NCBI GenBank assembly: GCA_027482245.1
Contig: JAIXWG010000049.1
Coordinates: 1 to 64,000 of the forward strand
Length of the DNA stretch: 64,000 nucleotides
Direction: 5' to 3'
Source of the DNA: Acetobacteraceae bacterium
GTDB taxonomy: Bacteria; Pseudomonadota; Alphaproteobacteria; Acetobacterales; Acetobacteraceae
The translations under genes were made by a program, and so were the position numbers. The notes beneath the pieces were generated by a model. That model saw only the letters and a program-made list of their open reading frames with translations, did no database searches and was not told where the DNA came from. Of this stretch, positions 30,964 through 39,809 are shown piece by piece (the stretch's first letter is position 1; every line of letters starts with the position of its first letter).

Positions 30964-31587
30964 CTAGTGATGTTCCCAATCGTCCAGTGAATCGGTGTTG
31001 GGCGGCGAGGTGCCGAGGATGTCCCCGGCCGTCGTCACGCCCAGCCCGTTCAGCAGGCGGTTGGAGTAGTTGAAATAGGCGCAGACCTGGTTGGCCTCCA
31101 GGATCTCCCCGTCATTGGCGCCGGCCTCGCGCAGCGCGTTAATGTCGGCCTCGACCATGCCCTGGGGGTCGAGCGTGAGCTTGCGGACATAGCGCAGCAG
31201 GGCGAGTTCCTTGCCGTCGAAGACGCGTTCGGGCTGCGCGGCGGCGAAGGCCTTGTAGATGGAGCCGGCGCGGGCCTCGTCCTTCAGCAGGCGCGACAGG
31301 CCGGCGAAGTGGTGCGCGACCGAATAGTCGCAGCGGTTCGATAGCGACGTGTAGACCGCGAGGCATTCCAGGAACCAGACCGGCATGGAATTGCCGGTGT
31401 GGTGCAGCACGGATTTGTAGAGCGCGCTGTGCCCTTCCATCGTGTGCGGCCGCAGGCTGTGGGCGCGCATCACGTTGTCGATCTTGCCGCCGGGGCCCTT
31501 CACGCGGTCATAGAGCGTGCGCAGGTAGCCCTCGCTTTCGTCGTAGGGCACCAGGCGGATCCAGGCGGGGTTCGCTTCGTCGGTCAT
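30964..31587 (-). CDS. AhpD-like/carboxymuconolactone decarboxylase-fold protein
   Basis: A 207-residue all-helical protein of the AhpD/CMD superfamily. The family CxxCxxxH motif appears as C-D-Y-S-V-A-H-H (Cys86, Ser89, His92/93), so the second cysteine is replaced by Ser; classical disulfide peroxidase cycling is therefore doubtful. It is the last gene of a seven-gene minus-strand unit and overlaps the upstream permease stop by 4 bp. It may act as an antioxidant or as a decarboxylase or hydrolase on the pathway's product. Confidence 0.72.
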   Translation of the reverse strand: MTDEANPAWIRLVPYDESEGYLRTLYDRVKGPGGKIDNVMRAHSLRPHTMEGHSALYKSVLHHTGNSMPVWFLECLAVYTSLSNRCDYSVAHHFAGLSRLLKDEARAGSIYKAFAAAQPERVFDGKELALLRYVRKLTLDPQGMVEADINALREAGANDGEILEANQVCAYFNYSNRLLNGLGVTTAGDILGTSPPNTDSLDDWEHH

Positions 31588-32486
31588 GAGTTCCTCTGAC
31601 GAAAACGCCGTTCCAGCCGCGCGGCGGCGGCGGAGAGCACGGCGCAGATGATGAAGTAGAAGAGCGCCACGATGATCCAGGTCTCGAAGACCCGGTTGGT
31701 GGTGGCGGCGACCTCGGCGCCCAGGAAGGACAGGTCCTGGATGGAGACGAGGGAGATGATGGAGCTGTCCTTCACCAGGCTGATCCCCTGCCCCGCCAGC
31801 GGCGGCACCACGCGCGCCACCGCCTGCGGCAGGATCACCAGGCGGAAGAGCTTCAGGCGCGAAAGCCCCAGCGCCTGCCCGGCCTCCCACTGCCCGCGCG
31901 GCAGGGACTGGATGCCGGCGCGGACGATCTCCGCGACATAGGCGCCCTCGAACAGGCCGAGGCAGAGGATGGCGGCGATGACGCCGGCCGCCTGCTGCGG
32001 CGGGCCGAAGAGCCAGGCGATGAGGCGGAGCGTGTCGGCATCCTGGCGCCTGATCCAGTCCTCGATGCCGAGTGCCGGGACGATCTGCGCGGTGACGAAG
32101 AAGTAGAAGACGAAGATGAAGACCAGCGGCGGGATGTTGCGGATGGTCTCGACATAGGCGCCGGCGATGAGGCGCGGCAGCAGGGCGGTGGCGCTGCGCG
32201 CGATGCCCATGAGCGTGCCGACCACGGCGGCGACGATGGCGGCCCAGAAGGAGACGCGGAGCGTCGTCATCACGCCCTGCAGCAGCAGGTTCGCGACCCA
32301 GGCGCCGGTCGCGTCCTGCCGTGCGACGAAGCCCAGCACCGGCCCGAAGTTCCAGCGATAATCCAGCGCCGCGCCGGCACGCCAGGCGAGGAAGCCCAGC
32401 GCGCCGACCACGACAGCCAGCAGAGCCGCGTCCAGCAGGCCGAAGCGCGGGGTGCCCCGCGCATAGGGTCCTCCTGGACGGTGCAT
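31584..32486 (-). CDS. amino-acid-type ABC transporter permease (AapQ-like)
   Basis: A 300-residue inner-membrane permease of the long PAAT subtype, with an extra N-terminal periplasmic stretch (DYRWNFGPVLGF) as in AapQ-type proteins. The coupling loop EAGQALGLSRLKLFRLVILPQA is intact. The ATG at 32486 overlaps the binding-protein stop (TGATG). It works with the binding protein at 32486 and the second permease at 33355. No ATPase gene accompanies them. Confidence 0.87.
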   Translation of the reverse strand: MHRPGGPYARGTPRFGLLDAALLAVVVGALGFLAWRAGAALDYRWNFGPVLGFVARQDATGAWVANLLLQGVMTTLRVSFWAAIVAAVVGTLMGIARSATALLPRLIAGAYVETIRNIPPLVFIFVFYFFVTAQIVPALGIEDWIRRQDADTLRLIAWLFGPPQQAAGVIAAILCLGLFEGAYVAEIVRAGIQSLPRGQWEAGQALGLSRLKLFRLVILPQAVARVVPPLAGQGISLVKDSSIISLVSIQDLSFLGAEVAATTNRVFETWIIVALFYFIICAVLSAAAARLERRFRQRNS

Positions 32487-33331
32487 CAGCCCGGAACCTG
32501 GTCCCGCCATTCGCGGTTCTGGAACCAGTAGGCCTGGCGTTCCTCAAGGAAGCCGTCCAGCTGCCGCGATGCGATCCAGTTGTTGAGGAAGTTCAGCGCA
32601 TCCGGGTCGCCCTTGCGCACCGCCATGCTGTCGATCTGGCGGGCGAGCGGCTGCGGGAAGGGGCTGAACAGCGCGGCCTCATTCTCCAGCACCGCGAAGC
32701 GCGGGCGGGGCATGGAGCCGACCATGCCATGGGCGCGGCCGTTGACCACTTCCAGGATCGACTGCGCGTCGTCGTCGAACTGCCGGAAGGTGGCGCGGGG
32801 AAAGAGGCGCTGCGCGGCGGCGAGCGCGGAGGTGCCGCGGCGGCCGCTGATCGTGATGTTGGGGCGGTTCCAGGCCTCCATCGTCGTCATGCCCTCCGCC
32901 AGGCGGCGGCTGGCGGCGAGATCGACGCCGGAGGCGGAGTAGGAACTGGTGAAGTTGGCGGAGAGGTTGCGCGCCGCCGTCACCGTCATGCCGCCGATGA
33001 TCATGTCGAAGCGCCCGGCCAGCAGCGCGGGGACGATGCCGTCCCAGGCGGTGGGGACGAATTCCGGCCGCACGCCCATGTCCTGCGCGAGACGCGTGGC
33101 GACGTCGATCTCGTAGCCGATGAGGTCGCCCGCGCGGTTGCGGAAGGCCCAGGGCACGAAGGTGGACATGCCGACGCGCAGCGTGTTGCGGCGCTTGATC
33201 TCCTCGATCACCGAGGTCGCGGCCAGCGCGGCGCGCGCATCCGTCGTCTGCGCCTGCGCGGTGCCGGTGATGGACACGGCGGCGCCGGCGGCGGCGGCGG
33301 GTGCCAGGAAGCGTCTCGTGATCCAGCCCAT
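32486..33331 (-). CDS. amino-acid-type ABC transporter substrate-binding protein
   Basis: A 281-residue periplasmic binding protein with a signal peptide (MGWITRRFLAPAAAAGAAVS..., cleavage near TAQA-QT). The mature part has the family motif LRVGMSTFVPWAFRNRAGDLIGYEIDVA, including the Gly-Tyr-Glu-Asp segment that contacts the amino-group end of ligands. GGAGA lies upstream of ATG 33331. It lies between its two permease genes, an arrangement that suggests heterodimeric membrane subunits. Confidence 0.88.
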   Translation of the reverse strand: MGWITRRFLAPAAAAGAAVSITGTAQAQTTDARAALAATSVIEEIKRRNTLRVGMSTFVPWAFRNRAGDLIGYEIDVATRLAQDMGVRPEFVPTAWDGIVPALLAGRFDMIIGGMTVTAARNLSANFTSSYSASGVDLAASRRLAEGMTTMEAWNRPNITISGRRGTSALAAAQRLFPRATFRQFDDDAQSILEVVNGRAHGMVGSMPRPRFAVLENEAALFSPFPQPLARQIDSMAVRKGDPDALNFLNNWIASRQLDGFLEERQAYWFQNREWRDQVPG

Positions 33332-33354: not shown

Positions 33355-34167
33355 TCAGGCGATGCCGCCGCGCAGCCGGCGTTCCAGCCCCTGCACGGCG
33401 AGGGATAGCGTGACCGTGACGCATAGATAGAGCGCGGCGACGGTCAGCCAGATCTCGAAGGTCATGAAGGTGTCGCTGATGACGTTGCGGCCTTCATTGG
33501 TCAGGTCGAAGATGGCGATGACGCTGACGATGGCGGAATGCTTGATCAGCGACACGCCAAGACCGGCGAGCGGCGGCAGGATGACGCGGAGCGCCTGCGG
33601 CAGCACGATGAGGCGATAGGCCTGGGCGCGCGACAGGCCGAGCGTCCACGCCGCCTCCCACTGCCCGAGCCGCACCGCCTGGATGCCACTGCGGAAGATC
33701 TCGGCGGCGAAGGCGCCCTCGAAGATCGCCAGCGCCAGCACGCCGGCCCAGAAGCGGTCCATCCCCAGGATCGGCGCCAGGATGAAATAGACGATGTAGA
33801 GTTGCACGAGCAGCGGCGTGTTGCGGATGGCCTCGACATAGGCAGCCACGACCCAGCGTCCGGCGACGGAGCCCGACAGCCGCAGGATGGCGGCGCCGAG
33901 GCCGATGAGGATGGTGAGCAGCAGCGCGATGGCGCTGATCTCCAGCGTCACGGCCAGGCCCTTCAGCAGGGGGCCCGGGAAGAACTCGCCTTCGAAGAGC
34001 TGGAACAGGTACCGCGGCACGCGGTGCCATTGCCAGTTGTAGCCCATCCCCGCGGCGCCGGAGACGACCAGCCAGACCAGCGCGCCCGCGAAGAGGGCGA
34101 ATTGCAGGATGTCGGCCAGGGCGCGGCGGCGGCCCTGCCATCGCGCGGCGGCGGGGGGCGGCCTCAC
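33355..34167 (-). CDS. amino-acid-type ABC transporter permease (AapM-like)
   Basis: A 270-residue inner-membrane permease, partner of the one at 31584. An N-terminal helix (FALFAGALVWLVVSG) and periplasmic MGYNWQWHRVP segment precede the usual core. The coupling loop EAAWTLGLSRAQAYRLIVLPQA is clear. Its ATG overlaps the stop of the HD-protein gene (34164-34167), physically tying the transporter to the oxygenase genes. Confidence 0.87.
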   Translation of the reverse strand: MRPPPAAARWQGRRRALADILQFALFAGALVWLVVSGAAGMGYNWQWHRVPRYLFQLFEGEFFPGPLLKGLAVTLEISAIALLLTILIGLGAAILRLSGSVAGRWVVAAYVEAIRNTPLLVQLYIVYFILAPILGMDRFWAGVLALAIFEGAFAAEIFRSGIQAVRLGQWEAAWTLGLSRAQAYRLIVLPQALRVILPPLAGLGVSLIKHSAIVSVIAIFDLTNEGRNVISDTFMTFEIWLTVAALYLCVTVTLSLAVQGLERRLRGGIA

Positions 34168-34775
34168 GGCGGAAGGATGCGACGCGGGGGGCGGGCGAGG
34201 ATACGCGCGACCATGGGGGCGAAGACGGCGATCGGCGCCTCCGGCAGGCCGGCGGCGATGGTGGTGATGTCGTAGCGCTCCACGAATTCGGCCGTGGCGG
34301 CGAAGTGTTCGTGGCCGCGCCAGCGGTCGCGGCCATCGGGGTCCACCGCCTCATCCGGGTGGTCGTGGCAGTGGTGGGACTGGAAGATCTGGTGCCGTTC
34401 CAGGATCCAGCGGCTGGCGTCGCTGACATAGGGTGCCAGCATCGCGGCAGCGAAGGCGCCATGGCTGTTCGGGCAGATGGTGAAGCCGACATCGTGGAAC
34501 AGCGTGACGACGACGTATTCCTCGTCCCGTCCATCCTGCATCGCGGCCGTCGCGGCCTGGATGCTGTGGCGGTAGTTGTTGACCTGGTAGCCGAAGCCGG
34601 GATCGGCGGCGGTCGCCTCCAGAAGCCGCAGCGCATGCGCCGCCTGCTGCCCGGCGTCGAAGACCTGGCGCTGGCGGGCCAGCAATTCCCAATCCCCGCG
34701 TCGGAAGGCGTCGAGGCGCGGGGCCTCGACATACCGCCAGCCTGGCTCCAGCAGGGGGGACCGATCCGCCGCCAT
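34164..34775 (-). CDS. HD-domain protein with PhnZ-like diiron oxygenase ligand pattern
   Basis: A 203-residue HD protein (COG4341-like). Candidate metal ligands are His70 (NYRHSIQAA), His94-Asp95 (LFHDVGF), His105, His128 (ERHQIF) and Asp169. The His-to-HD spacing of 24 equals that of the C-P-cleaving mixed-valent diiron oxygenase PhnZ, and HSIQAA matches its HSLQCA rather than the HSLRVA usual in HD phosphohydrolases. With a 2-oxoglutarate oxygenase gene 8 bp upstream, the pair resembles PhnY/PhnZ and TmpA/TmpB. What is seen is the motif; oxygenase activity and C-P cleavage are inferred. A nucleotide phosphohydrolase is the main alternative. Confidence 0.7.
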   Translation of the reverse strand: MAADRSPLLEPGWRYVEAPRLDAFRRGDWELLARQRQVFDAGQQAAHALRLLEATAADPGFGYQVNNYRHSIQAATAAMQDGRDEEYVVVTLFHDVGFTICPNSHGAFAAAMLAPYVSDASRWILERHQIFQSHHCHDHPDEAVDPDGRDRWRGHEHFAATAEFVERYDITTIAAGLPEAPIAVFAPMVARILARPPRRILPP

Positions 34776-34783
34776 CGCGCGGT

Positions 34784-35767
34784 TCAGCCCGTGGGTGCCC
34801 GGTAGCGGAAGGCCTTGTCGAAGCGGCCCACCACCCATTCCCCGCAGGCCACCGGCGGATGCTTCGCCTGGGAAGGATCGTCCAGCAGGTCACGCGGATC
34901 GACCACGGTGTGGAAGCCGGGGTCGTAGAAGACGGCGATGCTCTGCCGGGCCTTGCCGGAGGTGTTCACGACGCGATGGGGGTTGGAATGGAAGCGGTCA
35001 TTCGTCCAGCGATGCATCAGGTCGCCGATATTGACGACGAAGGTGCCCTCGATCGGGTGGGCCATCACCCATTCGCCGCTGGCGCTGCGCACCTGCAGTC
35101 CGCCCGTCATGTCCTGGTAGAGGAAGGTCAGCCCGCCGTAATCCGTGTGGGGCGCGACGCCGAACTGGTCCTGGCCGAGGTCGGGCGGCTGCGGCGGGTA
35201 CCAGATGAGCGAACCGCGGGCGAGCGGCCGGGCGAAGCGCTCCGCGAAGAAGCCGGCATCGCGGCCGAGGCTGAGCGCGAGCCCGCGCAGCACGGATTGC
35301 CCGAGGCCGAGCACCGCCTCGTAATAGGGATAGACGGTGTCGCGCAGCGCGGGAAGCGCTTCGGGCCACTGGTTCGGGCCCATCAGCGGCGTGCCGGCGG
35401 CGACGTCCGGATCATCCTCCGGCAGTTCCAGGCCGAAGACGAAGCTCTCCTTCAGGTCGACCTTGGCGCCCGTATACATCTTGGCGCCGCCATGGCCGAT
35501 CCAGCCGCGATGGCGCTTGTTGACCTTCACCGCGGCCTTCGCGTCCTCCGGCAGGGCGAAGAAGTCGCGCGCGCGGGCAAAGACGCCATCGATCAGCGGC
35601 TGCGGGATGCCGTGGTTGGCGACGTAGAAGAAGCCGATCCGCTCGCTGGCTTCCCGCATCGCTTGGCCGGCCGCGGCGCTGCCCGCCGGGTCGCCGGCCA
35701 CGAGCGCGGCGATGTCGATGACGGGGATCTCGCTGACGGCGATCTGCTTCGCGGTCGCATAGGCCAT
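34784..35767 (-). CDS. Fe(II)/2-oxoglutarate-dependent oxygenase (isopenicillin-N-synthase-like)
   Basis: A 327-residue cytosolic oxygenase. The facial triad is His207, Asp209 (APHTDYGG) and His264 (NPHRVVN), and the 2-oxoglutarate-binding R-x-S is Arg274/Ser276. The DIOX_N-type N-terminus (IPVIDIAALVAGD..., GFFYVANHGIP) places it in the IPNS/flavonol-synthase superfamily, a different branch from PhnY (PhyH type) or TmpA. GGAGA precedes ATG 35767. It sits between a sarcosine-oxidase-like flavoenzyme and the HD protein, suggesting that it hydroxylates the same small substrate before the HD enzyme acts. Confidence 0.88.
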   Translation of the reverse strand: MAYATAKQIAVSEIPVIDIAALVAGDPAGSAAAGQAMREASERIGFFYVANHGIPQPLIDGVFARARDFFALPEDAKAAVKVNKRHRGWIGHGGAKMYTGAKVDLKESFVFGLELPEDDPDVAAGTPLMGPNQWPEALPALRDTVYPYYEAVLGLGQSVLRGLALSLGRDAGFFAERFARPLARGSLIWYPPQPPDLGQDQFGVAPHTDYGGLTFLYQDMTGGLQVRSASGEWVMAHPIEGTFVVNIGDLMHRWTNDRFHSNPHRVVNTSGKARQSIAVFYDPGFHTVVDPRDLLDDPSQAKHPPVACGEWVVGRFDKAFRYRAPTG

Positions 35768-35793
35768 GGTGACAGTCTCCTCTGTCGCCATTG

Positions 35794-36954
35794 TCATGCG
35801 GAAGGCGCGTGGCCGCCAGCCCAGAAGGCGAGTTCCTCGCCCGTGACGTGTCCCTCCACCGCCGCCGCCAGGCCCAGCGCCATCAGCGGCGCCAGCTTGA
35901 AGCCGTGGCCGGAACAGGCGCTGGCCAGCGTCACGCCGGGCGCGACCTGGCGCAGAACGAAGCGGTCCTCCGGCGCCATGGTGTAGAGGCAGTGGCGCGC
36001 CGCGATCAGGCGATACGCCCCGAATCCGGCGATGGCGCGGGCGCCGGCCTCCATCAGCGCAGCGACGCGCCCGGTCCGCGGCGGGTCGCGCGGCGCGGCC
36101 GGGTCGACGGTGATCGAGGTGTCGTAGTCCCCGATCTTGAGGCGCGTGCCCGCCCGCGGCGGCAGCACATAGACGCCGCCCGTCGCATGCCCCGGCAGGC
36201 GGCAGAGCAGCATCGGCGCCTCCTCCCACAGCCCAGGCGGCGGTTCGAGATAGGCGACGGTCTGAAGCGACGCCCGCAGCCCGAATCGCCGCGCGGCGTC
36301 GGGCAACAGCCGCAGCACGCCGGCGCCGGCGGCGACCAGCGTCACATCGGCGGCGACGCGCGTGCCATCGGCGAGCACGGGCCCGCCTTCCGGGCAGGAT
36401 GCGACATGGGTGTGGCCGCGCAGTTCCACGCCGAGGCGCGGCAGCAGCCGCACCAGGTCCATCAGGATGGGCGCGGCGAGCAGCATGCCCGAACCCCCGA
36501 CCTCCATCGCGCGGATCACGCCATCCGGGTTGAGGACGGGGATGGAGGCGGGATCGACCTCCGTGAAGGGCAGGCCGTGGCGCGCCTGGCTGCGCGCCAC
36601 CGCGCCCTGCCAGGGCGTCTCCTCCCGCAGCGCGTAGATGGCACGCGCCGGCACCAGCCGGTCCTCCCCCGTCTCGGCGAAGAGGGTGCGCCAGGCGGTG
36701 AAGGCCGCCGGCATCATCGCGGCGTAGCCCTCCATCGTCCCATAGGCGTGGCGGATGATCCGGCCCTCATCGGCGGAGGAGCTGCCGGGGTTGGGGATCA
36801 GCCCGCCCTCCAGCACCGTCACCGCATGGCCCCGCCGCGCCAGCGCCCAGGCGGTGGTGAGGCCGAGGATGCCGGCACCGACCACGGCGATGCGCAGCGG
36901 CCGGTCCGTGCGATCCTGCAGCAGCACAGCGATTCGGCATGTCAGGGAATCCAT
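35794..36954 (-). CDS. sarcosine oxidase-like FAD enzyme, probable covalent flavin
   Basis: A 386-residue DAO-family amine oxidase close to monomeric sarcosine/N-methyltryptophan oxidase. It has the Rossmann motif VVGAGILG (about 24-31) and, near the C-terminus, ACSGHGFK, whose Cys347 matches the covalent-flavin cysteine of that group. It would oxidise a secondary or N-methyl amine to an imine, releasing H2O2. It is the first gene of the seven-gene unit with the two oxygenases and the importer. Its start is only two bases from the divergent creatininase start. A GTG about ten codons in is an alternative start. Confidence 0.85.
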   Translation of the reverse strand: MDSLTCRIAVLLQDRTDRPLRIAVVGAGILGLTTAWALARRGHAVTVLEGGLIPNPGSSSADEGRIIRHAYGTMEGYAAMMPAAFTAWRTLFAETGEDRLVPARAIYALREETPWQGAVARSQARHGLPFTEVDPASIPVLNPDGVIRAMEVGGSGMLLAAPILMDLVRLLPRLGVELRGHTHVASCPEGGPVLADGTRVAADVTLVAAGAGVLRLLPDAARRFGLRASLQTVAYLEPPPGLWEEAPMLLCRLPGHATGGVYVLPPRAGTRLKIGDYDTSITVDPAAPRDPPRTGRVAALMEAGARAIAGFGAYRLIAARHCLYTMAPEDRFVLRQVAPGVTLASACSGHGFKLAPLMALGLAAAVEGHVTGEELAFWAGGHAPSA

Positions 36955-36956
36955 GG

Positions 36957-37751
36957 ATGCGTCTCGACCGGATGAGCGTCTCGGCGCTGGAGGCGCGCTT
37001 CGCCGCGGGCAGGCGCGGCATCATCCTGCCCCTTGGCAGCCTTGAACAGCATGGCGCGCCGGGGCTGCTGGGGACGGATGCGATCTGCGCGCAGGCGGTG
37101 GCGGATGGCGCGGCGGCGCGGGCGGATGGCATCAGCGCGCCCGTCCTCGCCTATGGCCAGGCGCAGTTTCATCTGCGCCGCGCCGGCACGGCGAGCCTCC
37201 GGCCCTCGACGCTGATGGCCGTGCTGGTCGATGTGCTGGAAAGCCTGGCGCTGGGCGGCTTCACGCGAGTGCTGCTGCTGACCGGCCATGGCGGGAACGT
37301 CGCACCGGCGCAGGCCGCGATGCAGGAGGTGATGGCGGATGTCTCGACGGGGCGCCTCGCTTTGCCCGCGCCGCTGACGGTGAAGCTGCGGGCCTGGTGG
37401 GAGGGCCCGCGCCTGGCCGCGCTGCGGCGGGAGCTTTACGGCGACCGCGAAGGTTTCCATGCCACGCCGTCCGAGGTCGCGATCGCCATGGCGCTGCACC
37501 CGGAGGCCGCCGCGCCGCCTGAATCCTGGCCCGCCTTCCGCCCCCTGCCCGCCGACCCGCTGCATGATGCCGGCGGCGACCGCCACCTGGATGCGGCGCG
37601 CCACCGCGCCATGTTCCCGGACGGGGTGATCGGCAGCGACCCCTCCCTCGCCCGCGCGGAACACGGCCATGCGCTGCTGGAGGCCGCGGTCGCCGACGTC
37701 GCGGAAACCTTCGCGGCCTTCCAGGCGGCGCAGGATCATGCCGCGCGGTAG
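36957..37751 (+). CDS. creatininase family amidohydrolase
   Basis: A 264-residue metal-dependent amidohydrolase of the creatininase/FAPy-hydrolase family. Metal ligand candidates are Glu30, His32 and Asp41 (LEQHGAPGLLGTD) and the His of TGHGGN. The usual GPHLPL after EQH is GAPGLL, so one conserved His is missing. ATG 36957 has AGGGA upstream and starts with the family-typical MRLDRM; ATG 36939 would overlap the divergent gene. Related enzymes open cyclic amides (creatinine, formamides), consistent with processing an amine-oxidase product. Its 3' end overlaps the ridA-like gene by 16 bp. Confidence 0.82.
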   Translation: MRLDRMSVSALEARFAAGRRGIILPLGSLEQHGAPGLLGTDAICAQAVADGAAARADGISAPVLAYGQAQFHLRRAGTASLRPSTLMAVLVDVLESLALGGFTRVLLLTGHGGNVAPAQAAMQEVMADVSTGRLALPAPLTVKLRAWWEGPRLAALRRELYGDREGFHATPSEVAIAMALHPEAAAPPESWPAFRPLPADPLHDAGGDRHLDAARHRAMFPDGVIGSDPSLARAEHGHALLEAAVADVAETFAAFQAAQDHAAR

Positions 37752-38128
37752 GCCGTCGCCTCCACCTCCACCGTGATGCCGGGGGCGAAGAAGCTGCTCA
37801 TGTAGATCCAGCCGAGGGCGGGGCGGATGCTGGCGAAAACCTCCCCATGCGCGCGGCCGCTTTCCTTCCAATGCTCCGGGTTGACGACGTAGATGCGGGT
37901 CTTGACCACATCCGCCATCGTCATGCCCACGGCCTCCAGGCTCTCCCGGATGATGTCGAGGCAGACGAGCGTTTGCCGGTAGACATCGCCGGGGTGCAGC
38001 ACCGTGCCATCCGGCGCGCAGGGGCTGCACAGCGCGGTTTCCGCATAGGGGCCCACGCGCACCGCCCGGCTGTAGCCGCAGGCGACCTCCCACGGCCGGT
38101 CCGTGGCATGCGCCGTCCGAGGGCTCAC
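37736..38128 (-). CDS. RidA (YjgF) family imine deaminase
   Basis: A 130-residue Rid-family protein that hydrolyses reactive enamines or imines to ketones and ammonia. The IIRESLEAVGMTMADVVKTRIYV stretch (about 75-97) is diagnostic, although the canonical C-terminal CxP-E region is here ITVEVEATA. The GTG at 38128 overlaps the binding-protein stop (GTGA), so it is translated together with that gene. Imine clearance fits the amine oxidase nearby. Confidence 0.82.
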   Translation of the reverse strand: MSPRTAHATDRPWEVACGYSRAVRVGPYAETALCSPCAPDGTVLHPGDVYRQTLVCLDIIRESLEAVGMTMADVVKTRIYVVNPEHWKESGRAHGEVFASIRPALGWIYMSSFFAPGITVEVEATAYRAA

Positions 38129-38925
38129 GCCTGCACGATGCCCCACTTCGCATTGATCTCCGCGAAGAAACCGTTGGCCGTGGAGATGGTGATCCAGGCG
38201 TTCAGGAAGTTCGCGAAGATCACGTCGTTCAGCGGGCTCAGGAAGGCCATCGGGATCGGGTTGCGCGGGTTGTCCTGGAAGATGGCGACGAGGTCCGGGT
38301 ATTCCTTCGTCAGGAAGGCGGCCTCGATCATGGACGACATGGTCGCGTCCACGCGGCCGCCCAGCAGTTCCTGCCAGTCCCGCGCCGGGCTTTCCACGCG
38401 GCGCAGCGTGGCGTTGGGCAGGCCCTGCTGCACGAACTGCTCCATGGTGGTGCCGAGGTTGGTGCCGATGGTGACGCCGCGCTGGTTCAGCGCATCCCAG
38501 TTGGCGAAGCGCGTCGCATTGCGGCGATGCACCAGCGGCACGAAGGCGTTGCGCCCCCAGGGGATGGTGAAGCTGGCCGCCATGGCGCGGGCCACGGACA
38601 TGGAGGTGCCGGTGCAGACGATGTCATACTGGTCCGCCACCAGCCCGTTGATCAGGGTGCGCCAGTCCGTCGCGACGAATTCGGCCCGCACACCCATGTC
38701 CCGCGCCAGGCGCTGGCCGCATTCGATCTGGTGGCCGCGGTATTCGCGGCTGGCCGGGTCGCGGAAGCTCATCGGGTTGAAGTCGCCGGTGGTGCCGATG
38801 CGGATGCGCCCGGAGGACTGGATGGCCTGGAGGCGGGAGGATCCGGCCGCCTGGGCCAGGGCCTGGCCCGGGACGGCCACGGCGGCAGCCGCCGCGGCGG
38901 CGGCGGGGAGGAAGCGGCGTTGCAT
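38125..38925 (-). CDS. amino-acid-type ABC transporter substrate-binding protein
   Basis: A 266-residue periplasmic binding protein with an Ala-rich signal (MQRRFLPAAAAAAAAVAVPGQALAQ) and the mature motif IRIGTTGDFNPMSFRDPASREYRGHQIE. That region is closer to cyclohexadienyl-dehydratase-like SBP_bac_3 members than to the one at 32486. GAGGAGA lies upstream of ATG 38925. It is coupled to ridA and divergent from a permease gene 104 bp away that is its probable partner. Confidence 0.85.
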   Translation of the reverse strand: MQRRFLPAAAAAAAAVAVPGQALAQAAGSSRLQAIQSSGRIRIGTTGDFNPMSFRDPASREYRGHQIECGQRLARDMGVRAEFVATDWRTLINGLVADQYDIVCTGTSMSVARAMAASFTIPWGRNAFVPLVHRRNATRFANWDALNQRGVTIGTNLGTTMEQFVQQGLPNATLRRVESPARDWQELLGGRVDATMSSMIEAAFLTKEYPDLVAIFQDNPRNPIPMAFLSPLNDVIFANFLNAWITISTANGFFAEINAKWGIVQA

Positions 38926-39029: not shown

Positions 39030-39809
39030 ATGGCAGGGCTTGGCATGAACCTCAAGGCGCGCGCCTTCCTCCTGCTGCTGGTGGCGATGCCGCTGCTGTC
39101 GGCCTGCAGCGGCAACTGGGGCTGGCACGTGGTGGACCCCCGCGACGCCCGCGGCCAGGCCAACCTGTCCTTCATGCTGTCGGGCTTCTGGGCGACGATC
39201 TCGCTCAGCCTGGCGACCATGCTGCTGTCGGTCGTGCTGGGCCTGGCGGTCGCGATGATGGGCATGGCGCGGTTCCGCCTGCTCCGCTGGACCAACCGCG
39301 TCTATGTGGAGCTGTTCCGCTCCATCCCCATCCTGGTGATGATCCTCTGGGTCTTCTACGGCCTGCCCGTCGTGCTCGACATCCGGCTCGACGTCTTCGT
39401 CGCCGCGATGCTGGCGATCGCGATCTGCGACAGCGCCTTCGAGGCGGAGATCTTCCGCGCCGGCATCCAGTCCGTGGAACAGGGGCAGCGGGAGGCCGCG
39501 ATGGCGCTCGGCCTGTCGCCCTGGCAGCGCATGCGCTTCGTCATCCTGCCGCAGGCCATCCGCCGCGTCCTGCCGCCGATCGCCAACCAGTTCATCTACG
39601 TCGTGAAGATGTCCTCCCTCGCCAGCGTCATCGGCTACCAGGAGCTCACCCGCAAGGCCAATGAGCTGGTGGTGACGGTGTTTCGGCCGCTGGAACTCTA
39701 CACCATCCTCATCCTCGAGTACCTTGTGCTGATCCTCTGCATCTCCTTCGCCGTGCGCTGGCTGGAGAAGAGGATGGGCGCGGACCAGGGCGTGCGGCGG
39801 GTGGGATAG
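39030..39809 (+). CDS. amino-acid-type ABC permease with lipobox-like N-terminus
   Basis: A 259-residue inner-membrane permease. The coupling loop EAAMALGLSPWQRMRFVILPQA and the FWATISLSLATMLLSVVLGLAV core are standard. Unusually, the N-terminus reads like a lipoprotein signal: LKARAFLLLLVAMPLLSAC with lipobox L-S-A-C (Cys26), followed by the exported-looking SGNWGWHVVDP. If processed, the permease would be lipidated in the periplasm. ATG 39045 is an alternative start that keeps the signal. It is divergent from its probable binding protein; no ATPase gene adjoins. Confidence 0.83.
   Translation: MAGLGMNLKARAFLLLLVAMPLLSACSGNWGWHVVDPRDARGQANLSFMLSGFWATISLSLATMLLSVVLGLAVAMMGMARFRLLRWTNRVYVELFRSIPILVMILWVFYGLPVVLDIRLDVFVAAMLAIAICDSAFEAEIFRAGIQSVEQGQREAAMALGLSPWQRMRFVILPQAIRRVLPPIANQFIYVVKMSSLASVIGYQELTRKANELVVTVFRPLELYTILILEYLVLILCISFAVRWLEKRMGADQGVRRVG

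Follow-up and report, generated by a model that had tools for sequence, protein, structure and literature searches.

What does a PhnZ-like HD-domain protein act on when its gene stands beside genes for an Fe(II)/2OG oxygenase and a flavoenzyme, and is the substrate a phosphonate, as an earlier note on this DNA supposed? The window, by which we mean the whole stretch analysed, comprises 64,000 nucleotides from an Acetobacteraceae bacterium, a Roseomonas relative (contig JAIXWG010000049.1, positions 1 to 64,000). The features relevant to this question are as follows.

30964..31587, minus strand: CMD/AhpD-like protein (TIGR01926 87.2 bits, cut-off 81.8; PDB 6k40; alignment of 13)
31584..32510, minus strand: second polar-amino-acid-type ABC permease (PF00528; TIGR01726 48.7 bits)
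32486..33331, minus strand: family 3 solute-binding protein, SBP1 (PF00497; closest solved relative 9e2b, 273.7 bits)
33355..34167, minus strand: polar-amino-acid-type ABC permease (PF00528; TIGR01726 86.1 bits)
34164..34775, minus strand: HD-domain putative diiron oxygenase, 203 aa (ligand positions H70, H94, D95, H105, H128, D169)
34784..35767, minus strand: EFE/PaIPNS-like Fe(II)/2OG oxygenase, 327 aa (Pfam DIOX_N and 2OG-FeII_Oxy; H207, D209, H264, R274-x-S276)
35794..36954, minus strand: FAD-dependent MSOX-like amine oxidase, 386 aa, probable covalent Cys322 (PF01266; MSOX alignment)
36939..37751, plus strand: creatininase-family amidohydrolase, divergent (PF02633; possible start 36957)
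37736..38146, minus strand: RidA-family protein (PF01042)
38125..38925, minus strand: family 3 solute-binding protein, SBP2, cyclohexadienyl-dehydratase-like (PF00497; 5kkw 202 bits)
39030..39809, plus strand: polar-amino-acid-type ABC permease adjoining SBP2 (TIGR01726 94.4 bits)

The flavoenzyme, 2OG oxygenase and HD genes are intact ORFs adjacent to one another on the minus strand, as the earlier note had described. Its extent of 34164 to 36954 is correct for these three genes but misses the importer and the CMD/AhpD-like gene; the apparent operon consists of seven minus-strand genes running from 36954 to 30964, the HD gene being followed by a permease, a binding protein, a permease and the CMD/AhpD-like gene. 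The gap between the 2OG and HD genes is 8 bases, the HD/permease and permease/CMD pairs overlap by 4 bases each, and the ATG of the 2OG ORF is preceded by AGAGGAG.

Conservation of this arrangement was surveyed around a core clade of HD proteins, whose threshold was set after a gap in the scores had been seen (12 core matches at E 4.8e-52 or better, the next at 2.2e-34). The 2OG gene is present at 11 of 21 core loci (12 counting L062, where the copy is cut off) and the CMD gene at 13, compared with one and none, respectively, of 77 more distant HD loci, a set that was not de-duplicated, includes ten similar SAR11 loci and some short flanks, and had 38 members placed in the tree. Among 299 genomes, the core HD protein occurs in 12, the CMD protein in 8 and both in 6 (Fisher p 2.6e-8; by genus, p 0.0019), and the linked set includes Roseomonas/Elioraea-type, Comamonadaceae and actinomycete (Leekyejoonella) genomes. 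At one locus (L061), the 2OG gene lies on the opposite strand, 7.6 kb from the HD gene. A search of 398 genomes of the phylum added nothing to the core by score: apart from the window, its best match had E 2.8e-37. Plasmid relatives amount to 14 records, all below 60% identity; the four plasmid stretches examined fall at 38-41%, and the Cupriavidus stretch is unannotated.

The suggested pairing of HD and 2OG genes thus extends to part of the clade, since both the 2OG and CMD genes are missing from the stretch read at seven of the 21 core loci (L040, L041, L045, L046, L047, L048 and L059), three of which (L040, L046 and L047) have one flank of just 2.1-2.6 kb. The L045 genome carries a 50% relative of the 2OG enzyme about 15 kb away on the same contig, beyond the stretch read. 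Loci of this kind would be expected if the HD protein were a genuine oxygenase that acts alone, with the 2OG and CMD-like proteins serving other steps in catabolism of the same compound. That some other core members adjoin aminotransferase- or amidohydrolase-type genes favours the same view, as does the occurrence of 2OG and CMD genes without HD: L187 has a cluster of CMD, aminotransferase-like and 2OG genes in a genome that is 82% complete and gave no match in the HD search. There is also a genome (G119) with CMD and no match in the HD search, and relatives of the 2OG enzyme at 50-58% identity are likewise found without HD. However, HD, CMD and 2OG genes adjoin one another in distant taxa (L064, L067 and L068), which argues for a joint function, and we regard independent action of the HD protein as unlikely.

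The HD protein itself was assessed through its metal ligands and predicted fold. His70, His94-Asp95, His105, His128 and Asp169, whose proposed numbering fits the 203-aa start, do not vary in either of two alignments, one of 20 and one of 44 sequences, and the spacing of 24 residues from His70 to His94 equals that from His34 to His58 of PhnZ, as numbered in the accessible part of PMC7916636. When the AF2 model (pLDDT 94.2) was compared with the PDB by Foldseek, the top ten matches were all PhnZ or TmpB chains (E 5.3e-5 to 6.8e-4), followed by MIOX (probability 0.99, E 0.27); beyond those ten chains no match had an E-value of 0.1 or better, and no hydrolase was significant. A profile of 20 sequences (A1) recovered PhnZ (E 1e-12) and TmpB (E 2e-11), with the next best match at 0.055, and a Pfam scan at E 0.01 matched no family, neither HD nor MIOX (PF05153). 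The resemblance to PhnZ that had been noticed is therefore upheld, and the ligands and modelled fold support placing the HD protein among the diiron oxygenases of the PhnZ/TmpB/MIOX group rather than the HD hydrolases. An enzyme of another kind, a dinuclear phosphohydrolase built on the PhnZ scaffold, might nevertheless look similar: according to the portion of PMC11203657 available, the H...HD...H...H...D pattern is not absolutely reliable for oxygenases, some bimetallic phosphohydrolases being exceptions. The order of the Foldseek matches, the absence of a Pfam HD match and the gene's place in a cluster that also encodes an importer and two further redox-type enzymes speak against such an enzyme, to which we assign a rather low probability.

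The putative substrate pocket departs from that of the phosphonate enzymes. The positions of PhnZ Tyr24, Glu27 and His62 are changed in all 21 distinct core sequences, and those of Lys108 and Arg158 in all 13 core sequences checked. Where PhnZ and TmpB have their YxxE substrate loop, 21 of 21 core sequences read [GSATC]-F-G-Y, such that the Tyr24 site never holds Tyr (Tyr in 15/15 Phn-HD rows) and the Glu27 site is invariably Tyr (Glu in 13/15). The residue at HD+4, taken here as PhnZ His62, the fifth His described for Phn-HD in the available part of PMC11203657, is Phe in all 21 distinct core sequences and His in all 15 Phn-HD rows, and the HD protein lacks the segment aligning with the PhnZ QGG loop. 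In PhnZ, the roles given are binding of the amino group for Glu27, binding of the hydroxyl for His62 and gating for Tyr24. Because key substrate-holding residues are changed, the HD protein probably acts on some non-phosphonate compound. The Phn-HD model TIGR03276 scores it at 27.1 bits (cut-off 214.6) and four other core members at 24.8 to 29.2 bits, the TmpB model NF049941 gives 22.1 bits (cut-off 300), and of ten window proteins scanned, not one reaches a cut-off for phosphonate families.

The flavoenzyme had been assigned a covalent flavin at Cys347. That residue does sit in ACSGHGFK, but it was rejected as the flavin link, since alignment with MSOX favours Cys322 (HCLYT), the counterpart of MSOX Cys315, which binds FAD. 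The score against TIGR01377 (monomeric sarcosine oxidase) is 90.4 bits, below the cut-off of 479.65. Six of the 21 core loci have the flavoenzyme gene, and every one of the six belongs to Roseomonas or to the family of the window's organism; the postulated sarcosine step therefore falls outside any widely conserved module. A PhnY/PhnZ-type pathway, in which the HD protein would cleave the C-P bond of an N-methylated aminophosphonate to give sarcosine for the flavoenzyme, agrees with the PhnZ-like fold and ligands, the 2OG partner, the MSOX-like neighbour and sub-cut-off hits of the window permeases to PhnE and of a nearby GntR regulator to PhnF and PhnR (both below its HutC hit), but is improbable given the altered pocket, the low family scores, the amino-acid-type importer, the restricted flavoenzyme and the location of canonical Phn-HD and PhnJ elsewhere in the source genome. 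A homarine pathway, a guess only, was dropped. A MIOX search of the source genome carries no weight, its control having matched nowhere.

The 2OG enzyme matches DIOX_N and 2OG-FeII_Oxy at 110.3 and 85.9 bits and contains HxD...H and RxS, with the numbering previously given for His207, Asp209, His264, Arg274 and Ser276 fitting the 327-aa ORF. PaIPNS, the closest natural protein among its solved relatives, has no known function according to the accessible text of PMC12329707, and thus offers no substrate that could be transferred to the window enzyme. The activities in this paper on EFE ancestry, to which 9OVH and 6JYV led, could not be transferred either.

The CMD-like protein bears the motif N-x-C-x-Y-S-x-x-HH, in which Ser takes the place of the second CxxC Cys in all 13 CMD-like sequences, so that the CxxC redox pair of AhpD is not present. 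A creatininase-family gene accompanies 9 of the 21 core loci. SBP1 aligns a Ser with an Asp of AncCDT-1, and SBP2 has Ser, as does its nearest relative, at the corresponding position; Asp there usually holds the ligand amino group. For PDB 9E2B, the SBP1 relative, no related paper was among the matches listed.

Our preferred reading is based on four observations: the six ligand positions are invariant, the fold resembles that of PhnZ, TmpB and MIOX, the genes are linked in some members of the clade, and the residues reported to orient the PhnZ substrate are replaced. We consider it moderately likely that the HD protein represents a new subfamily of mixed-valent-diiron-type oxygenases and acts in tandem with an EFE/PaIPNS-like 2OG oxygenase, often joined by a CMD/AhpD-like protein. 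Together they would break down a small carboxylate that the cell imports, probably one other than a phosphonate. The 2OG enzyme would hydroxylate a C-H, after which a diiron Fe-superoxo species would remove the H atom from the hydroxylated carbon. A four-electron oxidation by the HD enzyme would then break a C-X bond, C-C being the most likely, to leave a carboxylate as in MIOX. The CMD-like protein may work on the intermediate or product, and in the lineage of the window a secondary-amine fragment could be handled by the FAD oxidase. More tentatively, the bond that the module cleaves might be C-C or some other bond that is not C-P, in a keto carboxylate or one derived from an amino acid. The module would then be the first HD-oxygenase tandem not devoted to phosphonates and the founder of a subfamily recognisable by FGY and HD-x-x-F.

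If correct, a clade combining PhnZ-type ligand positions with a different pocket and a link to an EFE-like 2OG enzyme would widen the chemistry of HD oxygenases and provide a genetic handle on two orphan enzymes, the HD protein and its 2OG neighbour; ligands alone would be insufficient to count PhnZ-like HD genes as phosphonate genes. The HD-domain oxygenases named in the available part of a 2020 review are MIOX, PhnZ and TmpB, three in all (PMC8177086); in that of a 2023 review, the PhnY/PhnZ route comes in four versions, each directed at phosphonates (PMC10574752). Among the open-licence papers listed by the searches, none was recognisable by its title and the start of its abstract as a description of such a module.

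Compared with known systems, the locus shares with PhnY*/PhnZ and GmPhnY/GmPhnZ (TIGR03276, NF052439) the HD fold, the six ligand positions, the 24-residue H-to-HD spacing and a 2OG neighbour. It differs from them in lacking the YxxE loop, the HD+4 His, Lys108, Arg158 and the QGG-loop segment, in scoring far below the cut-offs, and in adding an importer and a CMD-like partner; we take PhnY-type hydroxylases to belong to a different 2OG branch. TmpA/TmpB (NF049941, PDB 6npa) likewise has the HD fold, ligand positions and a 2OG partner, but TmpA is TauD/GBBH-like, whereas the window 2OG enzyme is EFE/IPNS-like, and the TmpB model score is low. Myo-inositol oxygenase shares the fold and six-ligand pattern, and its C-C cleavage is a non-phosphonate precedent, yet the window protein has no Pfam MIOX match and carries Phe at HD+4, where MIOX has Lys. 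For the 2OG enzyme, the closest solved relatives are the EFE-like IPNS-family proteins Anc357 (9ovh, 254 bits) and PaIPNS (6jyv, 224 bits).

The observation in the earlier note that the HD protein, a putative diiron oxygenase, is encoded beside a 2OG oxygenase and a flavoenzyme is right and worth keeping. The cluster and its surroundings are as follows.

36954 to 30964, minus strand: in order, FAD oxidase, 2OG oxygenase, HD protein, ABC permease, solute-binding protein, ABC permease and CMD/AhpD-like protein
34164–34775, minus strand: the HD protein
32486–33331, minus strand: the solute-binding protein of the cluster (SBP1)
38125–38925, minus strand: second binding protein (SBP2), upstream of the cluster
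Upstream of the cluster: permease paired with SBP2; divergent creatininase-family gene; RidA gene

From their intergene spacing, we infer that the seven genes form a single operon; 4-base overlaps occur at HD/permease and permease/CMD. The gene set was found again in two loci of the same genus (L038 and L039) and in Roseomonas sp. AR75, whose locus, L058, is the closest named counterpart of the cluster. All ten tested partner genes are present in both L039 and L058; in L038, whose contig stops 1.3 kb past the HD gene, the genes seen are those of the upstream set plus 2OG and the first permease.

The HD protein matched no Pfam family at E 0.01. Its matches to TIGR03276, the phosphonate family that includes PhnZ (27.1 bits, cut-off 214.6), and to the TmpB model (22.1 bits, cut-off 300) are short, covering the first histidine and the HD region. 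A 20-sequence profile of its relatives, compared with solved proteins, recovered PhnZ (E 1e-12) and TmpB (2e-11), with the next best at 0.055, and 6/6 metal-ligand positions are invariant across 44 sequences. With an AF2 model (44-row input alignment; pLDDT 94.2), the first ten PDB matches were all PhnZ or TmpB (E 5.3e-5 to 6.8e-4; TM-score 0.53–0.63 by query), followed by mouse MIOX (prob 0.99, E 0.27); this structure search returned no significant hydrolase. These results support assigning the HD protein to the oxygenase group by its predicted anatomy, not by chemistry.

Among solved structures, the 2OG enzyme is closest to 9ovh (Anc357, a reconstructed ancestor in the EFE line) and to 6jyv (PaIPNS), for which no function is known (PMC12329707). 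The flavoenzyme is alignable to MSOX, with Cys322 opposite MSOX Cys315. The CMD-like protein scores above the TIGR01926 cut-off; because the CxxC of AhpD is replaced by N-x-C-x-Y-S-x-x-HH in 13/13 CMD-like proteins, a peroxidase role is doubtful. SBP1 is nearest to 9e2b, and SBP2, since it is nearest to cyclohexadienyl dehydratase (5kkw), may be an enzyme and not part of a transporter.

Conservation of the neighborhood was assessed at 21 non-redundant loci of the core, the clade of HD proteins closest to that of the window. CMD is found in 13 of these, 2OG in 11 (a twelfth copy, in L062, is cut by the contig end), creatininase in nine and FAD in six; seven have neither 2OG nor CMD within the stretch read. 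Counting L062, 11/13 CMD loci carry 2OG, and the two with none visible (L060 and L066) both end <1 kb from HD. The same-strand order HD-CMD-2OG occurs in L064, L067 (Comamonadaceae), L068 (the actinomycete Leekyejoonella) and L042, and in L061 the 2OG gene lies 7.6 kb from HD on the opposite strand. Among 77 more distant HD loci, a set holding redundant loci and some short flanks, a single locus has 2OG (L136, 35% identity) and none has CMD.

Across 299 genomes of the family, core HD is present in 12, CMD in 8 and both in 6 (Fisher p 2.6e-8), and 7 genera have core HD, 5 have CMD and 3 are common (p 0.0019), with relatedness controlled only roughly. HD and CMD share a contig in 5/6 genomes with both and occupy separate contigs in G287. 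There are also counter-examples: at L187 (G050:C386, 2531–5337), three genes stand in a row, a CMD-like one, one that looks by eye like an aminotransferase gene, and 2OG, with HD absent between them; G119 has CMD and no HD match, and its 2OG match reaches only 41% and lies on a different contig; and 2OG relatives of 50–58% identity are likewise found without HD.

Other settings are seen at further HD loci. Near the more distant HD genes (HDIGD or HDVGD) at L049, L050, L051, L055 and L056 is a dioxygenase of one family, TauD-type at L051, where it was scanned; the layout resembles TmpA/TmpB. At L072, L073, L078 and L096, distant HD genes adjoin an AraC/DJ-1-type regulator family (L073 scanned) and neighbors that by eye resemble sarcosine oxidase subunits. 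Ten Pelagibacteraceae loci (L094, L097, L106, L109, L111, L114, L115, L127, L132 and L135) share one conserved neighborhood around a distant HD gene, with the core partners absent. In the L025/L054 HD protein, the YxxE site is retained as YPGE.

The earlier note had further proposed a PhnY/PhnZ-like pathway in which C-P cleavage of an N-methylated aminophosphonate could yield sarcosine for the flavoenzyme. This account is not supported, and a phosphonate role for the HD protein is unlikely. In the tree, the core forms one clade (24 rows, support 100/98), separate both from the clade of TIGR03276 proteins (Phn-HD; support 100/100) and from a wide grouping in which most sequences read HDIGD. The same genome encodes a canonical Phn-HD on contig 27 (L186, G000:C27, 7217–7780; ~217 bits, 216.7–217.2, just above the cut-off of 214.6) and PhnJ on contig 67 (481.9 bits). 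By-eye inspection, confined to 16 kb around this Phn-HD, revealed no PhnY-like gene; an apparent LIV-type ABC transporter, also recognized by eye, adjoins it.

Most likely, a ligand would be imported and then hydroxylated by the 2OG enzyme, after which the diiron HD enzyme, in a four-electron oxidation that needs no reductant, would cut the bond adjoining the newly added hydroxyl. The CMD-like protein, creatininase and RidA would process the remainder, joined in some lineages by the FAD oxidase. What has been shown is limited to the fold, the conserved ligands, the diverged pocket and the gene linkage; the substrate, the bond cut and the order of steps we infer.

Reviews assign roles to four residues of PhnZ: the amino group of the substrate is held by Glu27 and the hydroxyl by His62, while the second iron is gated by Tyr24 and Arg158 is part of a proton chain (PMC8177086; PMC7916636). 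A fifth histidine, described as invariant in the TIGR03276 clade (PMC11203657), is taken to be His62. That position is His in 15/15 Phn-HD rows and Phe in 21/21 distinct core sequences, in which the Glu27 position is Tyr (21/21) and the Tyr24 position is never Tyr (0/21). Core rows lack the segment that aligns with the QGG loop of Phn-HD. The PhnZ lysine that contacts the phosphonate, Lys108, is K in all 15 Phn-HD rows, whereas the 13 core rows tabulated have Q9 L2 G2; at Arg158 the same rows read R15 versus A6 E3 D3 Y1. The HD clade is an uncharacterized subfamily of putative HD diiron oxygenases, in which the pocket has diverged and the 2OG/CMD context is recurrent, not universal.
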